The position numbers and the translations under genes are program-made. Below are positions 5,543 to 49,950 of a stretch of 64,000 nucleotides of DNA, one piece after another. Source of the DNA: Cenarchaeum symbiosum A (GTDB taxonomy: Archaea; Thermoproteota; Nitrososphaeria; Nitrososphaerales; Nitrosopumilaceae). The notes beneath the pieces were generated by a model, which was not told the origin of the DNA, did not search any database, and saw nothing but the letters and a program-made list of their open reading frames with translations. Numbering within the stretch: the stretch's first letter is position 1; the number at the start of each line of letters is the position of its first letter. The DNA lies in the NCBI GenBank assembly GCA_000200715.1, contig DP000238.1, positions 680,154 to 744,153 of the forward strand. Direction: 5' to 3'.

Positions 5543-5914
5543 GCACCTACGCACGTTTAGTTTGATTCCCCTCCGCAGGCAGGGCCAGAGCCTCCTATCG
5601 AATGATGACGGCGTGGTTATGTACCTCTTCTGTCTTGCAGTGTTCAGTATCCGCCCCATACACGCCCATGCCTGCGGGGAATAAAAGGCCCCCAAGCGTG
5701 TCCGTGACCGGCCCCCACATTCCGCACCTACTATACAAAGGCCCCCCGGCATGGCCGGTCCATGGGGTGCGGTTTACTAACAAAAACAACCAGATCACCA
5801 AAAACGACAGGAACATCCCAACTATACACCCCCCACCACGAAATCCCTCCACCTGACTCAACTATGTTGCCCACAGGCTCCAGTACCCGCACCGCCCGGA
5901 CCCTTTTTCACACC
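5543..5914. other. Intergenic, no gene seen
   Basis: C-rich with short A-rich patches around 5775-5815. Open frames exist on both strands but have noncoding-like composition and no initiation signal. Nothing recognised. Confidence 0.5.
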
Positions 5915-6024
5915 TGATGCAACACCTGACACACGCCTGATACTACACACGCCTGATACGACACCCTGCACTACACTCCTGACATTATACACACCTGATA
6001 CAACACCCGACACACGCCTGATAG
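5915..6024 (+). repeat. Degenerate CCTGATAC-type tandem repeat
   Basis: The word ACAC(G)CCTGATAC and its variants recur irregularly, for example near 5930, 5946, 5989 and 6010. Spacing varies, so this is not CRISPR-like. It lies just upstream of a hammerhead ribozyme. A TATA-like ATTATAC at about 5984-5990 lies inside it. Confidence 0.55.
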
Positions 6025-6035
6025 ACCACACACGA

Positions 6036-6081
6036 GCCATCCTGACGAGGATTTCATATCCGAAACCTTATGGTCGATGGC
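6036..6081 (+). ncRNA. Type I hammerhead ribozyme HHR1, overlapping a start codon
   Basis: All core positions are present: CTGACGA (6042-6048), GAA plus A15.1 (6062-6065), U16.1 (6074) and cleavage base C17 (6075). Stem II is GGAT/ATCC with loop TTCAT. Stem III is ACC/GGT with a UUAU loop. Stem I is open-ended, GCCATC (6036-6041) with GATGGC (6076-6081), 6 of 6 pairs, so this is type I. Predicted cleavage is after 6075, one base before the ATG of the nuclease-like gene, which would leave a nearly leaderless mRNA. Hammerheads have been reported from archaea, to my recollection including this lineage. Activity here is inferred. Confidence 0.85.
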
Positions 6082-6760
6082 AATCATCAAGAGCCTGGCC
6101 TTCTCGGCCGCCTTCTCGCTTGTATCCCTGATAGTATTCAGCCTAGGCACCGCGTATATCGTGCCCTGGATGCTGCAGGCATACGAGCAGGCGGACTTTT
6201 GGGACGGATGGGCAGAATACACGTACGGCATCAAAGGGGCAGAATATCCCCACGAGATCAAAGGGGCAGAATATCCCCACGACATCAAAGGGGCAGAGCC
6301 CGCAGCGGACGCCCCCTACGATGCGCCCGGCACAACGCCACTAGCAGAGACACCTGCCATCATATACGGCGCAGCAGACCCTCCCCCGTGGGATGCGGTC
6401 CGCAGCGGGACTGTCGGCCTGACCATAGACGGCGACACCCTGTACATAGACGGCACCAGCATCCGGCTGGCACTAGTCGACGCCCCAGAAAGGGGCGAGG
6501 CAGGCCACGAAGAGGCGGGAAGCCTGCTCCGGGAGTACTGCCCGGGGGATACTGCCGTCGTATACGATACAGACTCCCTCCAGCAGGACCCCTACGGCCG
6601 CACAATAGCAAAGGTGTGGTGTTATGGGCACCCGCCCTCCTCGCCTGACCGCTCTGTAAACGAACTGCTCATAGATGCAGGCGCGGCATCGCTGTACGGC
6701 AGGTTCTGCAAGGCAAGCGAGTTTGGCATGCAACAGTGGGCTCAAGACGCCGGCTGCTAA
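6077..6760 (+). CDS. Membrane-anchored staphylococcal-nuclease-like (SNase) protein, 227 aa
   Basis: An N-terminal hydrophobic segment (about residues 5-33) acts as signal or anchor. A linker carries three copies of IKGAEYPH (about 52-74), then an SNase/TNase OB-fold domain (about 110-225). Family signatures are visible: 'IRLALVDAPE' with the first Arg and the Asp, a Glu in 'GHEEAG', and 'DPYGRTIAKVWC' with the second active-site Arg. Members cleave DNA and RNA using Ca2+. An extracellular location would suit nutrient scavenging or defence (inference). The start ATG lies in the 3' strand of hammerhead stem I, with no Shine-Dalgarno site. Confidence 0.85.
   Translation: MAIIKSLAFSAAFSLVSLIVFSLGTAYIVPWMLQAYEQADFWDGWAEYTYGIKGAEYPHEIKGAEYPHDIKGAEPAADAPYDAPGTTPLAETPAIIYGAADPPPWDAVRSGTVGLTIDGDTLYIDGTSIRLALVDAPERGEAGHEEAGSLLREYCPGDTAVVYDTDSLQQDPYGRTIAKVWCYGHPPSSPDRSVNELLIDAGAASLYGRFCKASEFGMQQWAQDAGC
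6230..6297 (+). repeat. 27-bp direct repeat inside the nuclease-like gene
   Basis: Two full copies and about half of a third, in frame, encoding the IKGAEYPH(E/D) linker units. Exact DNA identity suggests recent expansion. Confidence 0.85.
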
Positions 6761-6763
6761 AAG

Positions 6764-6777
6764 GCCCCTACAGGGGC
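6764..6777 (+). terminator. Hairpin just after the nuclease-like gene
   Basis: GCCCC-TACA-GGGGC starts three bases after the stop codon. A short T-run follows at about 6792-6800. A terminator or a 3'-end stabiliser is plausible. The CCCTACAGGG core is the same as helix P2 of several L1 leaders. Confidence 0.45.
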
Positions 6778-6994
6778 ACCTGTTATCCCCCCGTTTTTCT
6801 TTGGGGAACAAGCCATCCTGGCGGGGACTTTGGTCCAAAACCCGGCAGATGGCAACACAACATCCCCGCGGGCAGCCCCGGCTCACAGCCGAGGCGCCCA
6901 GAGGGCAACAGACCGCGTCCTTGATACGGGGCGCGGAAAAACCGGTGCGCGCGAGTGCCGCCAAGGCGGACGCGTACCCGCACCGGCATTTTTT
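6778..6994. other. Intergenic, no gene supported
   Basis: GC-rich with several open frames on both strands, none with initiation signals or protein-like composition. It ends in a T-run (about 6989-6994) that directly precedes the first L1 leader, as at most other L1 copies. Confidence 0.4.
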
Positions 6995-7096
6995 GACCTG
7001 GCAATCCTTCCAAACCCGCTGCGAATTTTCTATGCACCCCTTTTGGGGCTGACAGGCAGGCGGGTGTGGGAAAGGCTGTTCCGGCGTGAGGCCGGT
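6995..7096 (+). promoter_or_regulatory. Leader L1, copy 1 (most divergent)
   Basis: Starts GACCTGGCAATCC. Keeps P1 (ACCCGC/GCGGGT), P2 with a different sequence (CCCC-TTTT-GGGG), the GTGTGGGAAAGGC strand and P3 (CCGGC/GCCGG). The P1-P2 junction differs and the P4/ribosome-site part is missing. Conserved pairing despite divergence supports a structured RNA. Confidence 0.7.
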
Positions 7097-7382
7097 TGAA
7101 ATGTCAATGCAGGCCGGAGAGAGACCGGAGGCGGGATTCTTACACCCCGTGCGGCCCATGCCGCGAACTATACAGTCCGGTGCCTGGTTTCAGGCACATC
7201 AAATACCGGGAGAGACAGCCGCCGTAGCACCGTCAGATTCTGCGCGGTGCGGCAATAGACTGCGGCGGCAGCCCACAAGGGGGCGCCCCATTTTTCTACA
7301 GGGGGCGATGAAGACAACCATTCCAGCCCGGAATACATGCAAGGTACGGCGACGCGCCGGCACCGGACAGAGGTGATTTACC
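7097..7382 (+). other. Leader region of the 317-aa gene, hairpin at 7180-7197
   Basis: Contains a perfect hairpin GTGCCTG-GTTT-CAGGCAC at 7180-7197. A 22-codon frame starts at 7309 (MKTTIPARNTCK...) and ends at the gene's GAGGTG ribosome site, which recalls the short frames in front of the coil genes. An overlapping 96-codon frame from 7086 is not convincing. Confidence 0.35.
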
Positions 7383-8336
7383 ATGGCACAATTTACCGAC
7401 GAACAGCTAGACGACATCTGCGAGGGCCTCTCGTGCATATTCGGCGAGAAGGTCTCGCTTTTGCGCGCAGGCCTGGGGACCGCGTTTACCACGGAGAACG
7501 GCGGCATGATAGCCGAGCTCTCCGGCAAAAAGGTGGTGACCACGGCCGGAAAGGCGATGTACTTCAAGTACAACATGCTCAAGAAAATATCAGGCGAGCT
7601 GCACAGCACAAGGATACTCGACCACGGCTCGTTCATGTACCGCTGGTTTACGTACGCCGACAAGGCATGCGGCCTTGTGCGCAGGGGCGAAGGGCACATG
7701 CCCGACTGCCTTGCGTACAACGGGATGCCGGTCAACGCGAATCCGCGGACGGCCCGCAGGCTGGGACTCCCGCTCCGGACGCTCCGGGGTTGGAGCACCC
7801 TCGGCTTTGCCGGGGCCGACGGCATGGTGTGGTTCCGGGTGCGCAGCAGTTCTGTCGCTCACATCCTGAATGACACATCGCGCAGGGTGCACGAGCACAG
7901 GGTGCAAAACAGCCTGTACACGCCAGAGCAGCTTGCGCTGTATCAGCACGCCGAGTTTGTCCGGCGGATGCGCGCCGACGAGGCCCCGGCGGCCCCCGCG
8001 CGCGCCCGCAGGGTTCACACGGCGGATCCGGCACATGACGAGCTTGCGTCCAAAGAGCGCCGCATCCGGGAGATAGACGCCCAGATAGCGGAGCTCAAAA
8101 GCGCAGAGGGGCCAGACGCCCCGTCCGAGTATGTAGTGTACGAGGACAAGGGCGAGTACTCTCTTCCGCACATGACGGTGCACACGCCCAATCCGGGGCT
8201 CTTCCTGGAGCAGTGCTCGCTGGCAGAGTCAGAGTATGCAGAGGCATACCCTGCGCTTGCCGAGAGGCACAGAACCGAGAGCGCCCGCCGCTCCGAGCTC
8301 ATATCCGAGCTCAAAGCAGAGCGCGACTCCCTCTAG
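7383..8336 (+). CDS. Unknown protein of the island, 317 aa, C-terminal coiled coil
   Basis: Start ATG follows GAGGTG at a good distance. Residues 1-180 form a mixed domain with conserved-looking aromatic and glycine patches ('MYFKYNMLKKISGELHSTRILDHGSFMYRWFTYADKACGL' region). An Ala/Arg-rich linker (about 195-215) follows, then two charged helical stretches (about 220-240 and 275-317). No catalytic motif recognised. A nine-base T-run 28-36 bases downstream probably ends the transcript, and L1 copy 2 begins immediately after. Clearly protein-like; function unknown. Confidence 0.75.
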   Translation: MAQFTDEQLDDICEGLSCIFGEKVSLLRAGLGTAFTTENGGMIAELSGKKVVTTAGKAMYFKYNMLKKISGELHSTRILDHGSFMYRWFTYADKACGLVRRGEGHMPDCLAYNGMPVNANPRTARRLGLPLRTLRGWSTLGFAGADGMVWFRVRSSSVAHILNDTSRRVHEHRVQNSLYTPEQLALYQHAEFVRRMRADEAPAAPARARRVHTADPAHDELASKERRIREIDAQIAELKSAEGPDAPSEYVVYEDKGEYSLPHMTVHTPNPGLFLEQCSLAESEYAEAYPALAERHRTESARRSELISELKAERDSL

Positions 8337-8363
8337 GGGATAGAGCATACGCCAAGCAGGATC

Positions 8364-8372
8364 TTTTTTTTT
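8364..8372 (+). terminator. Poly-T tract (9 T)
   Basis: An oligo-T run on the sense strand is the usual archaeal intrinsic termination signal. It lies between the 317-aa gene and L1 copy 2. Confidence 0.5.
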
Positions 8373-8492
8373 GACCTGGCAATCCTTCCAAACCCGCATT
8401 ACCCTTCAGGGGGACAGGCCCGCGGGTGTGGGAAAGGCATGCCGGCGTGAGGCCGGTGGGCGGCTTTGCCGCAAATACCAGAGGTGGTAAAA
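8373..8492 (+). promoter_or_regulatory. Leader L1, copy 2
   Basis: P1 ACCCGC/GCGGGT, P2 CCC-TTCA-GGG, P3 CCGGC-GTGAG-GCCGG and P4 GCGGC/GCCGC. The ribosome site GAGG sits in the loop of a perfect TACCA/TGGTA hairpin, four bases before the ATG at 8493. Confidence 0.75.
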
Positions 8493-8891
8493 ATGGAGCA
8501 AAAAGCAGGCCTAGCTAGGCCAACAGTGCAGATACGGGACGAAGGGTCCCGGCCGAGGGGCAACATCGCCCTGAGGAGCCTCCTAAACGAGGCAGAATGG
8601 AGGACGGCTGAAAAGTCGTCTGCAATCCAGGTGATGACAGACGGGCGCGGATACCTCGTCCATCACGGCTGCGAGGACCTCGCAGAGGGAACCATCGTCT
8701 CCCGAGCGGGCTCGCGGCTCGTCGGCCTTCCGGCCGTCGCGGGGGGGCAGACCCCCCCTGACCTGTCAATCCTTCCAAACCCGCCAGTTGCCCTACAGGG
8801 GGACAGGCCCGCGGGTGTGGGAAAGGCATGCCGGCGTGAGGCCGGTGGGCGGCAAATGCCGCATGCACCAAGGTGCAGATGGAGGAAATGA
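8493..8891 (+). CDS. Unknown protein, 132 aa, 3' end read through L1 copy 3
   Basis: Starts MEQKAGLARPTVQIRDEG after the hairpin-presented site of L1 copy 2. Residues 1-90 look like a real small domain ('VMTDGRGYLVHHGCEDLAEG'). The remainder is simply the translation of the next L1 leader ('DLSILPNPPVALQGDRP...'). The native C-terminus was probably lost when the leader module was joined here, or the leader overlaps the gene end. Function unknown. Confidence 0.55.
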   Translation: MEQKAGLARPTVQIRDEGSRPRGNIALRSLLNEAEWRTAEKSSAIQVMTDGRGYLVHHGCEDLAEGTIVSRAGSRLVGLPAVAGGQTPPDLSILPNPPVALQGDRPAGVGKACRREAGGRQMPHAPRCRWRK

Positions 8892-8892
8892 A
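8760..8892 (+). promoter_or_regulatory. Leader L1, copy 3
   Basis: P1, P2 (CCC-TACA-GGG), P3 (CCGGC/GCCGG) and P4 (GCGGC/GCCGC). A further hairpin, TGCACC-AA-GGTGCA, lies before GGAGG and the ATG at 8893. Here no T-run precedes the element; it follows a C-run inside the previous frame. Confidence 0.75.
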
Positions 8893-9171
8893 ATGGACAA
8901 AGACAGGTATGGGACAGCGGGGCTGCCGGGGGAGATCACGGACTGGCCGCAGGGCACGGAATTTGATGATGCCGCCGGGCTCTCGGGATCAGAGTGCTGT
9001 CCGGCGCCGCGCCGGATCATCCCGGGGGTACGGCGGATGTTGTGCAGGATCAGTTATAAGCCTGGTACGCCGTATGGTACGGATGTTCAAAGTGGACAGG
9101 CCCGCGATGCGGGTCAACATGATGGCCCCGTACGGGGTGGGCGGCTCGATGCCGCATGGATCCGGAGGTGA
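8893..9171 (+). pseudogene. Truncated copy of the 118-aa island protein
   Basis: The first 30 or so codons match the 118-aa protein encoded from 11574 (MDKDRYGTAGLPGEITDWPQ). After about 8985 the homology is lost, and the frame runs into the promoter and L2 leader of the next gene. Compared with the intact block at 11574-12270, the middle and 3' end of the gene have been deleted. Confidence 0.6.
9054..9061 (+). promoter_or_regulatory. TATA box for L2 copy 1
   Basis: TTATAAGC, with the same octamer at the same place in all three intact blocks (12073, 18827, 25365). Transcription would start about 25 bases on, just before the L2 hairpins. Confidence 0.6.
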
Positions 9172-9176
9172 TCTGT
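9093..9176 (+). promoter_or_regulatory. Leader L2, copy 1
   Basis: Hairpins CCCGC-GAT-GCGGG and CCCC-GTAC-GGGG, a GGCGGC/GCCGC stem, and GGAGG in a GATC/GATC hairpin loop. It shares GGACAGGCCCGCG and GTGGGCGGC with L1, so the two leaders look related. Confidence 0.65.
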
Positions 9177-9251
9177 ATGAAAGAGTACAAGACAAGGCGG
9201 CAGGAAGTTGCCGCGAAGGATGCCGGGGCGGACCCGGTGGTGTGGATATGA
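9177..9251 (+). CDS. Leader peptide MKEYK type, 24 aa
   Basis: ATG follows GGAGGTGATCTGT. Encodes MKEYKTRRQEVAAKDAG... and stops in ATGA, overlapping the start of the coil gene at 9248. The same short frame with conservative changes precedes two-membrane coil genes at 12196, 18950 and 25488. It probably couples translation; whether the peptide itself acts is unknown. Confidence 0.55.
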   Translation: MKEYKTRRQEVAAKDAGADPVVWI

Positions 9252-9823
9252 CCCGAATTGGCAGGCTGGGGCGGATGATCCGTCTCGGCAGGATTGCGGG
9301 GGCTATCCGCAGGCTCGGGGCCCGCATTCCGCGACGCCGGGGAGGGCAGAAACAGCCCTCGTCCCAGGACGACGGGAAAGGGAAAAAGAGCTTTTTGCAC
9401 AAGCCCACGTTCATCATGGCCTCTCTAGTGGCCGCGGTGGGCCTTGGTGCCTCTATCCATGTATATCATGCATGGACTCCCGGTGATGCACTGGCATTGG
9501 CCGCGCTGGTAGTCTCGCCGTCTGTGGTAATGCTGGTCATGCTCTGGAGGACGCGCGACGAGGTTCGCGGCCTTGATAGGACGTTAAGTGGCATATCTAA
9601 CCTGATAGAGTCCGAGTCTGAGCTGACAAGGAAGGTTCTTGGCGGCATGGCAGGGACCCTCAAGAACATTGGCAAGACGCTCGATGGCATGAACAAGAAT
9701 TTTGAGGGCATGAACAAGAATCTTGAGGGCATGAACAAGAATCTTGAGGGCATGAACAAGAATTTTGAGGGCATGAACAAAAAGTTGGATGGCATCTCGG
9801 GGCCCGACAGGCCGGCCCCGTGA
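9248..9823 (+). CDS. Coil protein, two membrane helices and a heptad tail, 191 aa
   Basis: Layout of the family: a basic N-terminus (MTRIGRLGRMIRLGRIAG, with Arg every three or four residues), a variable charged link, two hydrophobic helices (about residues 58-76 and 82-105), then a long helical tail. Here the tail ends in five 7-residue units GMNKN(F/L)E, a strict heptad. The conserved end is 'DGISGPDRPAP'. The start was chosen for the ATGA overlap with the leader peptide and for agreement with paralogues. Likely a membrane-tethered oligomer. Function unknown; pore-forming or surface roles are guesses. Confidence 0.7.
   Translation: MTRIGRLGRMIRLGRIAGAIRRLGARIPRRRGGQKQPSSQDDGKGKKSFLHKPTFIMASLVAAVGLGASIHVYHAWTPGDALALAALVVSPSVVMLVMLWRTRDEVRGLDRTLSGISNLIESESELTRKVLGGMAGTLKNIGKTLDGMNKNFEGMNKNLEGMNKNLEGMNKNFEGMNKKLDGISGPDRPAP
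9686..9790 (+). repeat. 21-bp tandem repeat, five units, in a coil-protein gene
   Basis: GGCATGAACAAGAATYTTGAG repeated with one or two changes per unit, exactly seven codons each, so helix register is kept when copies are gained or lost. Confidence 0.85.
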
Positions 9824-10245
9824 TGGGGGCCAGCGCGGTCTCCCCGTGCCCTGAGGTGCCACGGTACCGGCGTGACCTGGATGTGTTCGGGGACGTCATG
9901 CGCGACCCCGCGGCCGTTGGAGCCCTTGTGGCGGCCGCGGGGGGCTCCGCCTTCTCCATCTATGCATATGCTGTAGGTGCACTCGAACTGGCCTTGGCCG
10001 GCCTGCTTGTTGCGCCGGCTGTGGTAATGCTGGTCATGCAGTGGAAGACGCGCGGCGAGGTCGGCCTCCTTGATAAAACACTAGACGACATGTCCGGCCT
10101 GATAACGTCCGAGTCTGAAAAGACAAGGGAGATCCTGGGCAGCACGGCAGCAACTCTCAAGAGCATAGACGGGAAGCTAGACCGCATCCCGGGGCCCCCG
10201 GCACCCACTACACTGCCGACGCGTAATGGGGGCACCTGTGCATAG
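9823..10245 (+). CDS. Coil protein, short form, 140 aa
   Basis: The start overlaps the previous stop (TGATG). A different N-terminus lacks the MTRIGRLG segment. Two hydrophobic helices (about residues 33-52 and 56-74) are followed by the family tail 'SESEKTREILGSTAATLKSIDGKLDRIPGPP'. The last residues (TLPTRNGGTCA) come from reading into a relic of the 239-aa gene in another frame, so the 3' end is a recombination joint. Confidence 0.6.
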   Translation: MGASAVSPCPEVPRYRRDLDVFGDVMRDPAAVGALVAAAGGSAFSIYAYAVGALELALAGLLVAPAVVMLVMQWKTRGEVGLLDKTLDDMSGLITSESEKTREILGSTAATLKSIDGKLDRIPGPPAPTTLPTRNGGTCA

Positions 10246-10434
10246 CAGTCCCGGATGCAGGGGCCGCAAGGTTTGCATTTGACGGCACAGGGATAGATCT
10301 CAACGGCAGGACTGTGACAATGCTCTCCAAGGCGTTCTTTCTGCTGTTCCCGTGAAGAGACGGCGTGTTCCTCAACCGGCTGCCCGCGCGGCTGCGTAGG
10401 CATGCCGAGGAACTGATGGAAAATCACGGGACTG
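10232..10434 (+). pseudogene. Decayed 3' end of the 239-aa gene, relic 1
   Basis: Translates as HLCIAVPDAGAARFAFDGTGIDLNG..., matching the last 65 residues or so of the intact protein at 23997-24716. An in-frame TGA stands at the RRDGVF position. No start exists. It abuts a T-run and L1 copy 4, as the intact gene abuts L1 copy 8. Confidence 0.75.
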
Positions 10435-10448
10435 GGATCTATTTTTTT

Positions 10449-10584
10449 GACCTGTCAATCCTTCCAAACCCGCCAGTTGCCCTACAGGGGGACAGGCCCG
10501 CGGGTGTGGGAAAGGCATGCCGGCTTGAGGCCGGTGGGCCGCCTTGTGCGGCACGGGAGTCATCCCACATCAGGAGTGATGAAA
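10449..10584 (+). promoter_or_regulatory. Leader L1, copy 4
   Basis: P1, P2 (CCC-TACA-GGG) and P3 (CCGGC-TTGAG-GCCGG). P4 has swapped bases (GCCGC-CTTGT-GCGGC), which keeps pairing. An extra GGGA-GTCA-TCCC hairpin is present, and GGAG lies in the loop of CATCA/TGATG. Confidence 0.75.
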
Positions 10585-11253
10585 ATGATAGTAATACCAA
10601 TGGATGCCAAGACCGGCAGGCCCCGAAGGGCAAAAAAGATACGCCGCGAGGCGGGCAGGCCGACCGGGCGCAGGCAGGAGCGCCAATGCGCTAGAATGGC
10701 GCAAAATAATACAGCGGATGCGCCCCCTGTACAGTGCACGGCAGCGCCGCAGGAGCCAGGCAGGGGCGATCCCAGAAACGGAGCCTACTGCAGGATAAGG
10801 GGTGCACTGCTCCGGCCGAGGACGGGCTGCAGCACGCGGTATATAGTCCGGGGCGGGGACGTCCTGTACAGGGATGCGGCAGGAAAAACTGTGGCAAAGC
10901 TTGAGGACGACTCGACCCTCTTCATAGTGGGGACAGGCGAGACCCTCGATGTCCGGTACATGTTCTCAAGGGTGCCAGGGGATCTCTTGGAATCCTGCAG
11001 GGAGTATGCCCAGACCATCGCCGGGGACCACTTTGATGATGCCCGCGGTGACGCGGCCACCATGGGGGGATGCAGCAGGTACATCATGGATGCAGATGCA
11101 GCAGACGCCCTGTTTTTTGAGGAGACTGTCCGGTATGCAGGGACATTTGTGCACCCTGGGGACAAGCGGGGCCTTGACATGTACAAGGGCGACCTTGAGG
11201 CATGCGAGGCCATACTGACGGCCCGCAGAAACGCAAGGGGCGAGCAGCCCTAA
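10585..11253 (+). CDS. Unknown island protein, 222 aa
   Basis: Starts MIVIPMDAKTGRPRRAKK. An in-frame ATG six bases upstream is possible, but the chosen one has better spacing from GGAG. A basic Arg-rich N-terminus (about residues 8-40) could bind nucleic acid. A compact domain follows ('YIVRGGDVLYRDAAGKTVAKLEDDSTLFIVGTG' region, then a helical part with 'FFEETVRYAGTFVHPGDK'). No motif recognised. It stands between L1 copy 4 and the second hammerhead ribozyme and occurs once in the window. Confidence 0.65.
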   Translation: MIVIPMDAKTGRPRRAKKIRREAGRPTGRRQERQCARMAQNNTADAPPVQCTAAPQEPGRGDPRNGAYCRIRGALLRPRTGCSTRYIVRGGDVLYRDAAGKTVAKLEDDSTLFIVGTGETLDVRYMFSRVPGDLLESCREYAQTIAGDHFDDARGDAATMGGCSRYIMDADAADALFFEETVRYAGTFVHPGDKRGLDMYKGDLEACEAILTARRNARGEQP

Positions 11254-11328
11254 AGCACGGCGGGCCCTTCAAGGCCCGCGGCCGGCAACGGCAAAAGACG
11301 GCCCCGTCCGGGCCACTCCGGGATATCC

Positions 11329-11411
11329 CGGCAGCCATACTGACGAGTCCTATGTGGACGAAACACGGCGCCAGACCACCGGTGCCGTGTCTGTGGCATT
11401 TATTGCTGCCG
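11329..11411 (+). ncRNA. Type I hammerhead ribozyme HHR2
   Basis: The core is complete: CTGACGA (11340-11346), GAAA (11360-11363), U16.1 (11390) and C17 (11391). Stem II is GTCC/GGAC with loop TATGT. Stem III extends A15.1-U16.1 with CACGGCGCC/GGTGCCGTG (one G-U) and an 8-base loop. Stem I is GCCATA/TGTGGC (one G-U); an outer CGGCA/TGCCG helix lies beyond a 9-base internal loop, suitable for the tertiary contacts of fast hammerheads. Cleavage is predicted after 11391, 48 bases before L1 copy 5, so it would separate the upstream message from the L1-led one (inference). Confidence 0.9.
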
Positions 11412-46620: not shown

Positions 46621-47991
46621 TCACAGCTCTCTGACATGTGTTATCATGAGTTGCCGGTGTGCAATGTACTCTCGCAGGCTGAGCATCCTTCTGTCCCATG
46701 TGACGAATTTTGTGCATTTTGCACCCGCTGCAATCTGCAGGTGCATATATTTCGAGTGTGGGAGAACAAGTTCCCTTGGATGCAGCTTCCGACCATCGCG
46801 GTAAGAATATTTCAGCTGTATGCGTGCAAGATTGATCAGATCGTCCTCATCTATGAAACCGAACTCCTCATTAATCTTGTTTGTATTCCTGGAGTCTGTA
46901 GAGGTGAAAAAATGCTTGATCTGGTCGTAGCTGTCATTAACATTCTGAAAGAGCTCGCCTTCGGGAAGTCTAGCGCGGATCTTGACTTTGGGGGACCTTG
47001 GATCGCGCCCTTCATATGTCAGGGAGAGCAGGTGGTATGCCTCCATCATGACAAGATTGGATGTTCTCAGCTTGAACTCGCCCGTCTGAATCCTCTCAAA
47101 TGCGCTGACTGTTTCTGGGCGTCTTTCCTTACTGACAAAGTCTACATACAGCGGTGGATCAAATAAATCGGCTCTCGATTCATGTCTCCTGGATAATTCA
47201 TCAAAGTCACAGTCTGCTAGGGCCGGGTAATTCCCAAGAATTCCCTCTATCTCGCTGATGTCCATGGGGTGGGTCTTGAACGGCGTCTTCTTGCCCATGG
47301 ACTTCCAGCTAATCCTTTTTCCATAAGTGTCATCCATAATGTCCCGGTGCAGGGGCAGCCCGTACTCTATGGGAATCCACTCCGGCGGGTCCTTGGGGGA
47401 GCCGGACAGTAGGTCTTTGATCCTGCCGGAGCTGCGGGCAATGGCCCCCTTGGGCTTGCCGGGGAATCGGCTGCTCACCAGCAGGTGTATCTCTGCTATC
47501 GAATGACAGTTGAGAGCCTCGGTTAGGCGTATGATCTTCCTACCTATACCTGAGTCGTCCTTTGTGAAATATTCCTCCGCCAACCGGAATTCTATGTGGT
47601 CGTCGAGGAGCCCGTAGGGGTTTATTGTCATGTGCCCTGAATCTTCCAGGTTCCGCAGGGCATCTTCCAGCTCCGCCCTGTCAATGCGGCCGTCCCGGAG
47701 CACAAAGGGCGGCTCTATCCCGTACGCATCAAGCAGCCTGCATGCATACTCTAGTATGGCGCCCATCCTTGGCATGTCCTCGATGTAGCGCACGGCGGTG
47801 ACTGCCCTCTCTATCAGGTATTCCCGCGGCCCCAAGACGTCCGCCGAACCCGCGGCCACTGGAGATTCGTCCACGCAACACGTGCATCTTCCCCCCTCCG
47901 GGGCATAGATTATCTTCATACAGCTGGCACATTTCACATCGGGCATGTGATGGATTGGAGTATCTCCTATTTTTACCTGTTGTATTGCCAT
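46621..47991 (-). CDS. Zinc-ribbon/PIN fusion protein, 456 aa
   Basis: N-terminal zinc ribbon 'CASCMKIIYAPEGGRCTCC' (about residues 20-38), helical middle domain (about 50-220), then a C-terminal PIN-like domain from 'DPPLYVDFVSKERRPETVSAFERIQ' to 'AKCTKFVTWDRRMLSLREYIAHRQ'. Intact member of a three-copy tandem family; the two copies upstream are truncated before the PIN domain. ATG start MAIQQVKIG is lost (ACG or other) in both other copies. Confidence 0.75.
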   Translation of the reverse strand: MAIQQVKIGDTPIHHMPDVKCASCMKIIYAPEGGRCTCCVDESPVAAGSADVLGPREYLIERAVTAVRYIEDMPRMGAILEYACRLLDAYGIEPPFVLRDGRIDRAELEDALRNLEDSGHMTINPYGLLDDHIEFRLAEEYFTKDDSGIGRKIIRLTEALNCHSIAEIHLLVSSRFPGKPKGAIARSSGRIKDLLSGSPKDPPEWIPIEYGLPLHRDIMDDTYGKRISWKSMGKKTPFKTHPMDISEIEGILGNYPALADCDFDELSRRHESRADLFDPPLYVDFVSKERRPETVSAFERIQTGEFKLRTSNLVMMEAYHLLSLTYEGRDPRSPKVKIRARLPEGELFQNVNDSYDQIKHFFTSTDSRNTNKINEEFGFIDEDDLINLARIQLKYSYRDGRKLHPRELVLPHSKYMHLQIAAGAKCTKFVTWDRRMLSLREYIAHRQLMITHVREL

Positions 47992-48914
47992 GCGGGTTTG
48001 GGGCTAGCTCTGTGCAGGTATCCCCCGTGGCATATCTCCATCATTACAAGATGCGACATTCTTGACTGGAATTCGCCCGGCTGGATCATCTCGCACTATG
48101 TCTATCTACGGATATTTTTCCCCGCCGGCCTACATGCAGCGGATCAAAACAAATCGCTTCTCGATTCATGTCTCCTGGATAACTCATCAAAGTCACAGTC
48201 TGCTAGGGCCGGGTAATTCCCAAGAATTCTCTCTATCTCGCTGATGTCCATGGGGTGGGTCTTGAACGGCGTCTTCTTGCCCATGGACTTCCAGCTAATC
48301 CTTTTTCCATAAGTGTCATCCATAATGTCCCGGTGCAGGGGCAGCCCGTACTCTATGGGAATCCACTCCGGCGGGTCCTTGGGGGAGCCGGACAGGAGGT
48401 CTCTGATCCTGCCGGAGCTACCGGCAATGGCCCCTTTGGGCTTGCCGGGGAAGCGACTGCTCACCAGTAAGTGTATTTCCGCTACAGAATGGCAGTTGAG
48501 AGCCTCGGTTAGGCGGATGATCTTTTCACCTACACCTGAGTCGTCCTTTGTGAAATGTTCCTCCACCAACAGAAATTCTGTGTGGTTGTCGAGGCGCCTG
48601 CTGGGGTTTATTGTCATGTGCCCTGAATCTTCCAGGTTCCGCAGGGCCTCTTCCAGCTCCGCCCTGTCAATGCGGCCGTCCCGGAGCACAAAGGGCGGCT
48701 CTATCCCGTATGCATCGAGCAGCCTGCATGCATACTCCAGTATGGCGCCCATCCTTGGCATGTCCTCGATGTAGCGCACGGCGGAGACTGCCCTCTCTAT
48801 CAGGTATTCCCGCGGCCCCGTGGCATCAGGGGATTTTCCCAGGCATATGGTGCAACTTCCTCCATCCGGGGCATAGATCATCTTCATGCAGCCGGCACAC
48901 TTTACATCAGGCAC
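47992..48914 (-). pseudogene. Truncated copy 2 of the zinc-ribbon/PIN gene
   Basis: Open from 48914 (MPDVKCAGCMKMIYAPDGG) to 48144, ending 'HESRSDLF' at TTTTGA where the intact copy has TTTGATCCA. Below that, PIN-domain remnants such as 'SHLVMMEICH' persist out of frame. The first 90% of the open part is very close to the intact copy. An expressed zinc-ribbon-only protein is possible. Confidence 0.7.
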
Positions 48915-48959
48915 GTCTGGGATCTGAACTTTTCCTATTTTTACCTGTTGTATTGACGT

Positions 48960-49908
48960 GCGGGTTTGGGGCTAGCTCTGTGCAGGTATCCCCCGTGGCA
49001 TATCTCCGTCTTGACAAAATGCGACATCCTTGACTGGAACTAGACCGCCTGGATCATCCCGCGCTCTGTCTATCTCCGGACATTTTTTCCCACCGGCCCA
49101 GTCTACATACAACGGTGGATCAAAATAAATCGGTTCTCGATTCGTGTCTTTCATATAGTTCATCAAAGTCGCATTTGGCCAACGCCGGATAATTTTTCAA
49201 AATGCCCTTGATTTTGTTGAGATCCGAGGGAGGGGCAGGCGGTGGCATCTTCTTGCCCATGGACTTCCAGATTATCCTCCTTTCATAGGTGTCATCCATG
49301 ACTTCCCGGTGCAGGGGCAGCCCATACTCAATAGGGAGCCACTCTGGCGGGTCCTTGGGGGAATCGGACAGGATGTCTTTGATCCTGCCGGAGCTGTGGG
49401 CAATGCCGCCCTTGGGCTTGCCGGGGAAGCGACTGCGCACCAGTAGGTGTATTTCCGCCACAGAATGGCAGTTGAGAGCCTCGGCTAGGCGGATGATCTT
49501 CTCACCTATGCCTGAGTCATCCTTTGTGAAACATTCCTCCACCAGCAGGAATTCTGTGTGGTCGTCGAGTAGTCTGTCGGGGGTTATTGTTATGTGCCCT
49601 GAATCTTTGAGGTTCCGCAGGGCCTCTTCCAGCTCCGTCCTGTCGATGCGGCCGTCCTGGAGCACAAAGGGCGGCTCTATCCCGTACGCATCAAGCAGCC
49701 TGCATGCATACTCCAGTATGGCGCCCATCCTTGGCATGCCCTCGACGGAGCGCACGGCGGTGACTGCCCTCTCTATCAGGTATTCCCGCGGCCCCAGGAT
49801 ATCCGCCGAACCTGCTGTCTCCGGGGATTCGTCAAGGCAACACGTGCATCTTCCACCCTCCGGGGCATAGATCATCTTCATGCAGCCGGCACACTTTACA
49901 TCAGGCAC
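48960..49908 (-). pseudogene. Truncated copy 3 of the zinc-ribbon/PIN gene
   Basis: Open from 49908 (MPDVKCAGCMKMIYAPEGGRCTCC) to 49120, then the same extra T and TGA as copy 2. 'DPPLYVDWAGGKKCPE' remains in another frame just downstream. More diverged in the last 60 residues than copy 2. A shared stop at one site suggests the break predates the last duplication or spread by conversion. Confidence 0.7.
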
Positions 49909-49950
49909 GTCTGGGATCTGAGCTTTTCCTATTTTTACCTGCCGTATTTC

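Follow-up and report, generated by a model that had tools for sequence, protein, structure and literature searches.

A type I hammerhead motif at the start codon of an SNase-like gene in Cenarchaeum symbiosum, with conserved gene-start hammerheads in two sister genera

We have analysed 64,000 nt of the Cenarchaeum symbiosum A genome (contig DP000238.1, positions 680,154 to 744,153 of the forward strand; hereafter the window) and observed a complete type I hammerhead, designated HHR1, at window positions 6036-6081 of the + strand, where the start codon of an SNase-like gene forms part of stem I. The motif is rare, it has a second copy in the same window, and hammerheads at gene starts are conserved in two sister genera. 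We put at about even the chances that HHR1 acts in cis as a true type I hammerhead, located in the 5' leader of the SNase-like gene, and that it serves in the constitutive maturation of the transcript to a nearly leaderless mRNA and not as a switch. Transcription through HHR1, its cleavage and an effect on translation are steps that we infer from the sequence.

Structure and rarity of HHR1

A descriptor scan and fold evaluation gave stems of 6, 4 and 3 bp. By direct reading, the RNA letters of HHR1 run in the order listed here, together with the gene that begins inside the motif.

6036-6081, + strand: HHR1, whole type I hammerhead (descriptor scan, fold evaluation, generic covariance model)
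6036-6041, + strand: stem I, 5' strand, GCCAUC; partner is 6076-6081 (direct reading)
6042-6048, + strand: core C3-A9, CUGACGA (direct reading)
6049-6061, + strand: stem II, GGAU/AUCC (strands 6049-6052 and 6058-6061), with loop UUCAU (descriptor, fold)
6062-6064, + strand: core G12 A13 A14, GAA (fold evaluation)
6065-6074, + strand: stem III, ACC/GGU (strands 6065-6067 and 6072-6074), with loop UUAU and including A15.1-U16.1 (descriptor, fold)
6075-6076, + strand: predicted cleavage, C17 (C6075) / G6076 (position from the hammerhead consensus)
6076-6081, + strand: stem I, 3' strand, GAUGGC, containing the start codon 6077-6079 (ORF list, fold)
6077-6760, + strand: SNase-like gene, 227 aa, with an N-terminal hydrophobic segment (PF00565, E 2.6e-7)

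The core of the type I class (CUGANGA ... GAA, A15.1-U16.1 and H17, which is C6075) is present in full, as is the class architecture of three helices with stem I open and stems II and III closed. The first-pass annotation of this DNA had proposed a hammerhead with all conserved bases and three stems, and direct reading, descriptor and fold agree with that proposal to the exact coordinates. It had also placed the cut one base 5' of the start codon and the ATG of the SNase-like gene within the 3' strand of stem I; the former holds as a predicted position, with the single base G6076 between the cut and ATG 6077-6079, and the latter is what we observed. By eye, loop UUCAU showed no clear pairing with the flanks of stem I of the kind that a loop II-stem I tertiary contact would involve. 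In the predicted fold, an extended stem I could contain a 10/2-nt internal loop.

The SNase-like protein has relatives in many related archaea; in GTDB contigs we found only a distant bacterial one. ATG 6077 is a credible start, because no in-frame ATG, GTG or TTG lies upstream of it in the ORF and because residues 1-30 make up a hydrophobic segment, which initiation at the next in-frame Met would delete. Farther inside the gene, positions 6210-6297 hold an in-frame 27-nt repeat in 3.3 copies (IKGAEYPHE units).

The thermodynamic minimum of HHR1 is a different hairpin, without the hammerhead core, at -15.8 kcal/mol versus -12.4 kcal/mol for the hammerhead fold, a difference of 3.4 kcal/mol. 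In the conserved hammerheads of the sister genera, described below, the predicted minimum is likewise a fold other than the hammerhead, which lies 0.2-4.0 kcal/mol above it, and because these gaps are similar the objection from an alternative fold is a weak one.

Given the base and dinucleotide composition of the window, type I hammerheads whose Watson-Crick stems are no shorter than those of HHR1 are expected by chance ~1e-7 times in 64 kb and ~4e-6 times in the genome; for a much looser hammerhead descriptor the expectation is 0.02 per genome. The 2.05 Mb genome contains 39 strings of the form CUGANGA(8-20 nt)GAAA, and a stem II hairpin was present in 2 of the 39, namely HHR1 and a second element, HHR2, at 11334 (30 of the strings were checked by script on their extracted loci, the others visually). 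A generic type I covariance model, whose source was artificial sequences with a fixed core and random paired stems, scored HHR1 at 34.7 bits (E 3e-8 in the window), although E-values from this model somewhat favour HHR1, since the stem lengths were chosen after the finding had been seen. With this model, nothing else in the C. symbiosum genome scored as high as HHR1, nor did anything in three surveys of related archaea, whose overlapping sets comprised 101 relatives, 400 genomes at class level and 398 at phylum level.

The Rfam models gave no hammerhead match for HHR1, either at gathering score, a cut-off set for curation rather than a structural trait of the hammerhead class, or at E <= 10. 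The covariance-model search that had been suggested as a check on the motif thus gave a divided answer, strong with the generic type I model and negative with Rfam. Weak Rfam matches to snoR160 and CRISPR-DR10 were taken as chance. The HH9 model found no match across the genome, and no type II hammerhead was found in the window. Compared with Hammerhead_1 (RF00163), HHR1 has the same core, three stems, open stem I and cut after NUH; it differs in falling below every Rfam threshold, in its 3-bp stem III and in that no clear loop-loop contact was seen by eye. The RAGATH-1 hammerhead (RF03152) was likewise not matched by HHR1.

The second copy and hammerheads in related archaea

The elements of HHR2 are as follows.

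11334-11397, + strand: HHR2, second type I hammerhead (descriptor; fold; R1 22.7 bits)
11334-11339/11392-11397, + strand: stem I
11340-11346, + strand: CUGACGA
11347-11350/11356-11359, + strand: stem II
11360-11362, + strand: GAA
11363-11372/11381-11390, + strand: stem III
11391, + strand: C17
11393-11395, + strand: GTG within HHR2

HHR2 lies 5.3 kb downstream of HHR1, and a pattern scan of the 2.05 Mb found no further hammerheads; being the sole two found, so close together and on one strand, HHR1 and HHR2 are probably related. They have in common a C at position 7, a 4-bp stem II, a 5-nt loop II and a GCCAU/RUGGC stem I, and the GTG of HHR2, which opens a short ORF of 11 codons, occupies the place of the ATG in HHR1. 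The minimum-energy fold of HHR2 is the hammerhead; in its sequence context a competing hairpin is present. RF03152 aligned with HHR2 over 62 nt at 24.7 bits (E 0.012), under its gathering score of 56.3, and Hammerhead_1 gave 17.3 bits, also below gathering.

The window has repeats of several other kinds. A unit of ~100-165 nt that starts with TGACCTGKCAATCCTTCCAA occurs on the + strand at 8372, 8759, 10448, 11439, 13847, 18197, 24731 and 27801, with most copies directly 3' of a poly-T run. Possibly, this is a repeated structured leader; the unit had no Rfam match at gathering score, and the upstream parts of the other copies are without a hammerhead. The segment 11439-27900 is highly repetitive and includes several kilobase-scale, near-identical copies of gene blocks (up to 98%), and 47142-48954 together with 48130-49948 make up a tandem duplication of ~1.8 kb at 86% identity.

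Among 250 genomes of the family, we found a conserved hammerhead in 24 genomes of two sister genera, g8 (n=20) and g5 (n=4), at loci L066, L092, L111, L112, L114 and L120-L138. The route to g8 led from the generic model to one genome, G043, and from there to further genomes of that genus. A second covariance model, composed of seven g8 sequences and HHR1, detected the hammerheads of both genera with E 1e-14 to 1e-19; the score of HHR1 itself in this model is high by construction. Where tested against Rfam, none of these hammerheads was above threshold. Most matches of the generic model in other genomes (for example L067-L073, L091 and L094-L096) had, on inspection, no proper set of stems, appeared coding-like and were not counted.

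In all 24 genomes the gene that follows the hammerhead is homologous and encodes a secreted protein of ~200-230 aa; in g8, where this was checked, the hammerhead lies directly 3' of the stop codon of the upstream gene. The predicted cut is 10-13 nt 5' of an SD-like GGAGG or GAGGT (two carry GGGGG instead), and the ATG is ~23-30 nt 3' of the cut when start-codon choice is allowed for; automatic choice gives 16-21 nt in a few cases, in which it settled on a GTG or TTG close by or on an earlier ATG. Over all sequences, seven base pairs are changed on both sides compared with 0.6 in shuffles, several of the seven coming from HHR1, the single most divergent row; within the seven g8 sequences alone, two stem II pairs covary.

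These hammerheads resemble HHR1 in being of type I, in belonging to the leader of a chromosomal gene and in occurring in the same archaeal family. They differ in that the gene is an SD-led one for a secreted protein, the cut falls ~23-30 nt before the ATG, and the AUG is outside stem I. In G001, one other genome of the same genus as Cenarchaeum, the generic model detected no orthologue of HHR1. The SNase homologue of G001 is 47% identical along part of its length; its gene lacks a hammerhead and carries a plain TATAATA 22 nt upstream of the ATG. The sequence comparisons point to gene-start hammerheads that have probably been kept by selection in the family of g8, g5 and Cenarchaeum, and the general idea of hammerheads at gene starts in this family finds its support in the sister genera. 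This applies to the family's gene-start hammerheads as a group and does not extend to HHR1 as an individual copy.

The leader, its promoter candidates and other readings of HHR1

Three features on the 5' side of the gene bear on where its transcript begins.

5732-5739, + strand: candidate upstream TATA box TATACAAA (motif score 7.0; prediction only)
5774-6035, + strand: G-poor, nearly unstructured stretch, candidate leader of the uncut transcript (G 11.8%; the most negative GC skew of the window)
6051-6058, + strand: rival TATA-like site ATTTCATA, within stem II/loop II of HHR1 (highest score within 300 bp 5' of the gene)

No stretch of the window's + strand is poorer in G than the 262 nt of 5774-6035, on the 5' side of HHR1, which fold at -18 kcal/mol versus ~-99 kcal/mol for random stretches. 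Such weak folding and low G content suggest a stretch that would suit an open RNA leader. Part of it consists of short, degenerate repeats around ACACGCCTGATAC, and it contains eight CTGA. A transcript from the predicted TATA box at 5732-5739 would include HHR1, and further TATA-like sites of the + strand lie at 5982-5984.

The placing of ATTTCATA inside HHR1 suggests another origin for the mRNA, unlikely in our judgement but to be taken seriously, and the main source of uncertainty about HHR1: this site would be a leaderless promoter with mRNA starts at ~6077-6083, so that the main mRNA would start too late to hold HHR1, its 5' half would be missing, and the hammerhead would act at most on read-through transcripts. 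Scores as good as that of ATTTCATA, the best in those 300 bp, occur in only 0.9% of 11-position spans, gene starts genome-wide have an AT peak at about -27 to -25, and the TATAATA of the G001 homologue lies 22 nt ahead of its ATG. Yet ATTTCATA begins at -26 and most TATA sites in the genome begin at -32 to -30, a spacing to the ATG 4-6 nt shorter than usual which would put the start after the A of the ATG; the TATA-like sites at 5732 and 5982-5984 are available as alternatives, and a promoter at ATTTCATA leaves the presence of a complete hammerhead unexplained. The first-pass annotation had seen in HHR1 a ribozyme that controls access to the start codon, in which folding would mask the AUG until cleavage or unfolding; as a switch, it would need a signal that acts on folding or cleavage and so sets translation. 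The case for such a switch appears to be purely geometrical, in that the AUG is within a 6-bp stem and that a hairpin lacking the hammerhead core competes with it, and we regard it as quite improbable. Synthetic hammerhead switches that hide the SD do function in bacteria, as far as the work cited in PMC5052635 indicates, and there, as in HHR1, an element of translation start is paired in the ribozyme and is freed by the cut; those are engineered and ligand-controlled, whereas HHR1 is natural, pairs the AUG itself and has no ligand domain that we could see. We found in HHR1 neither a ligand-binding pocket nor a conserved switch, no conservation of this copy was detected beyond the species, with G001 included in the comparison, a promoter-like element overlaps it, and in the conserved ribozymes of the sister genera both AUG and SD are outside the core.

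The pairing of HHR1 with HHR2 admits a reading at larger scale, in which the 5.3-kb block between the two, 6076-11391, would be freed as a single RNA; the hammerheads that flank genes in prophages may act in this way (Perreault 2011, PMC3088659). The arrangement is similar, with two hammerheads on one strand around a block of + strand ORFs, and they are the only such pair that the pattern scan found in the genome. The prophage cases differ in that no phage gene was recognised here and in that HHR1 spans a start codon. Pfam and PHROGs scans of the interval detected neither an integrase nor a clear phage gene, poly-T runs break up the block ahead of the 8372 and 10448 copies of the repeated leader unit, and HHR2 has its competing hairpin in context; we regard excision of a unit as very unlikely. 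We give very little credence to the view that HHR1 is a chance or dead motif, one that conforms to the consensus and neither cleaves nor matters. Its lack of an Rfam score, its short stem III and its alternative fold are what one would cite for this view, together with the 4 of 18 consensus-conforming RNAs that did not cleave in vitro (Perreault 2011, PMC3088659); against it are the expectation of ~4e-6 per genome, the proximity of HHR2 and the hammerheads conserved elsewhere in the family.

Proposed maturation of mRNA 5' ends and its significance

For HHR1, we favour 5'-end maturation. A transcript would begin upstream of the motif, from a leader promoter or by read-through; HHR1 would fold during transcription and cut itself after C6075; and the cut would drop the leader, leaving a nearly leaderless nuclease mRNA that begins 5'-OH-G-AUG. 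Once the cut is made, however, GAUG could pair with CAUC 6085-6088, so that the AUG would be covered again, a point against this reading. In archaeal initiation complexes, the triphosphate of a leaderless mRNA mimics a -1 base, and the complex is less favoured when the mRNA ends in a 5' hydroxyl (PMC11698992). Because one real base stays before the AUG, the product of HHR1 might compensate for its hydroxyl end; we infer that the leftover G6076 may substitute at the ribosome for the 5' triphosphate that holds the archaeal leaderless initiation complex together.

A natural precedent, which supports this processing reading, is the HHphage hammerhead of haloviruses HF1/HF2, located 13 nt upstream of a start codon and with the 5' end of the major transcript within 3 nt of the cut (PMC3088659). 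Like HHR1, it belongs to an archaeal system and lies just 5' of the start codon of a protein gene; it differs from HHR1 in its viral origin, its core insertions and its 13-nt distance, HHR1 being chromosomal, with a canonical core, the AUG in stem I and the cut 1 nt before the AUG. Perreault 2011 (PMC3088659) reports at least three archaeal hammerheads. In the literature searched, we found no report of hammerheads in Cenarchaeum, Thaumarchaeota, Nitrosopumilus or ammonia-oxidizing archaea, with the qualification that the alignments behind those three or more archaeal hammerheads may include HHR1, HHR2 or the g8/g5 family. The novelty ascribed to the arrangement in the first-pass annotation thus survives in part: hammerheads near start codons (HHphage) and synthetic switches that hide the SD were known, as is the hammerhead class itself, but an AUG inside stem I was not found described and, as far as we have checked, is a new arrangement.

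More tentatively, and with less than even confidence, we propose that chromosomal hammerheads regularly make mRNA 5' ends across the family, giving SD leaders with a 5'-OH in the two sister genera and, in C. symbiosum, 5'-OH-G-AUG with a base that would replace the triphosphate. Few cellular hammerheads have a known biological role, and HHR1 with the 24-genome family, in which the distance to the ribosome-binding site is nearly fixed, is a directly testable case of self-cleavage making mRNA 5' ends in a cellular archaeon. HHR1 also bears on how archaeal ribosomes accept almost leaderless mRNAs with a 5'-hydroxyl. In summary, our observations suggest that RNA self-cutting shapes the front ends of some mRNAs in C. 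symbiosum and related archaea.
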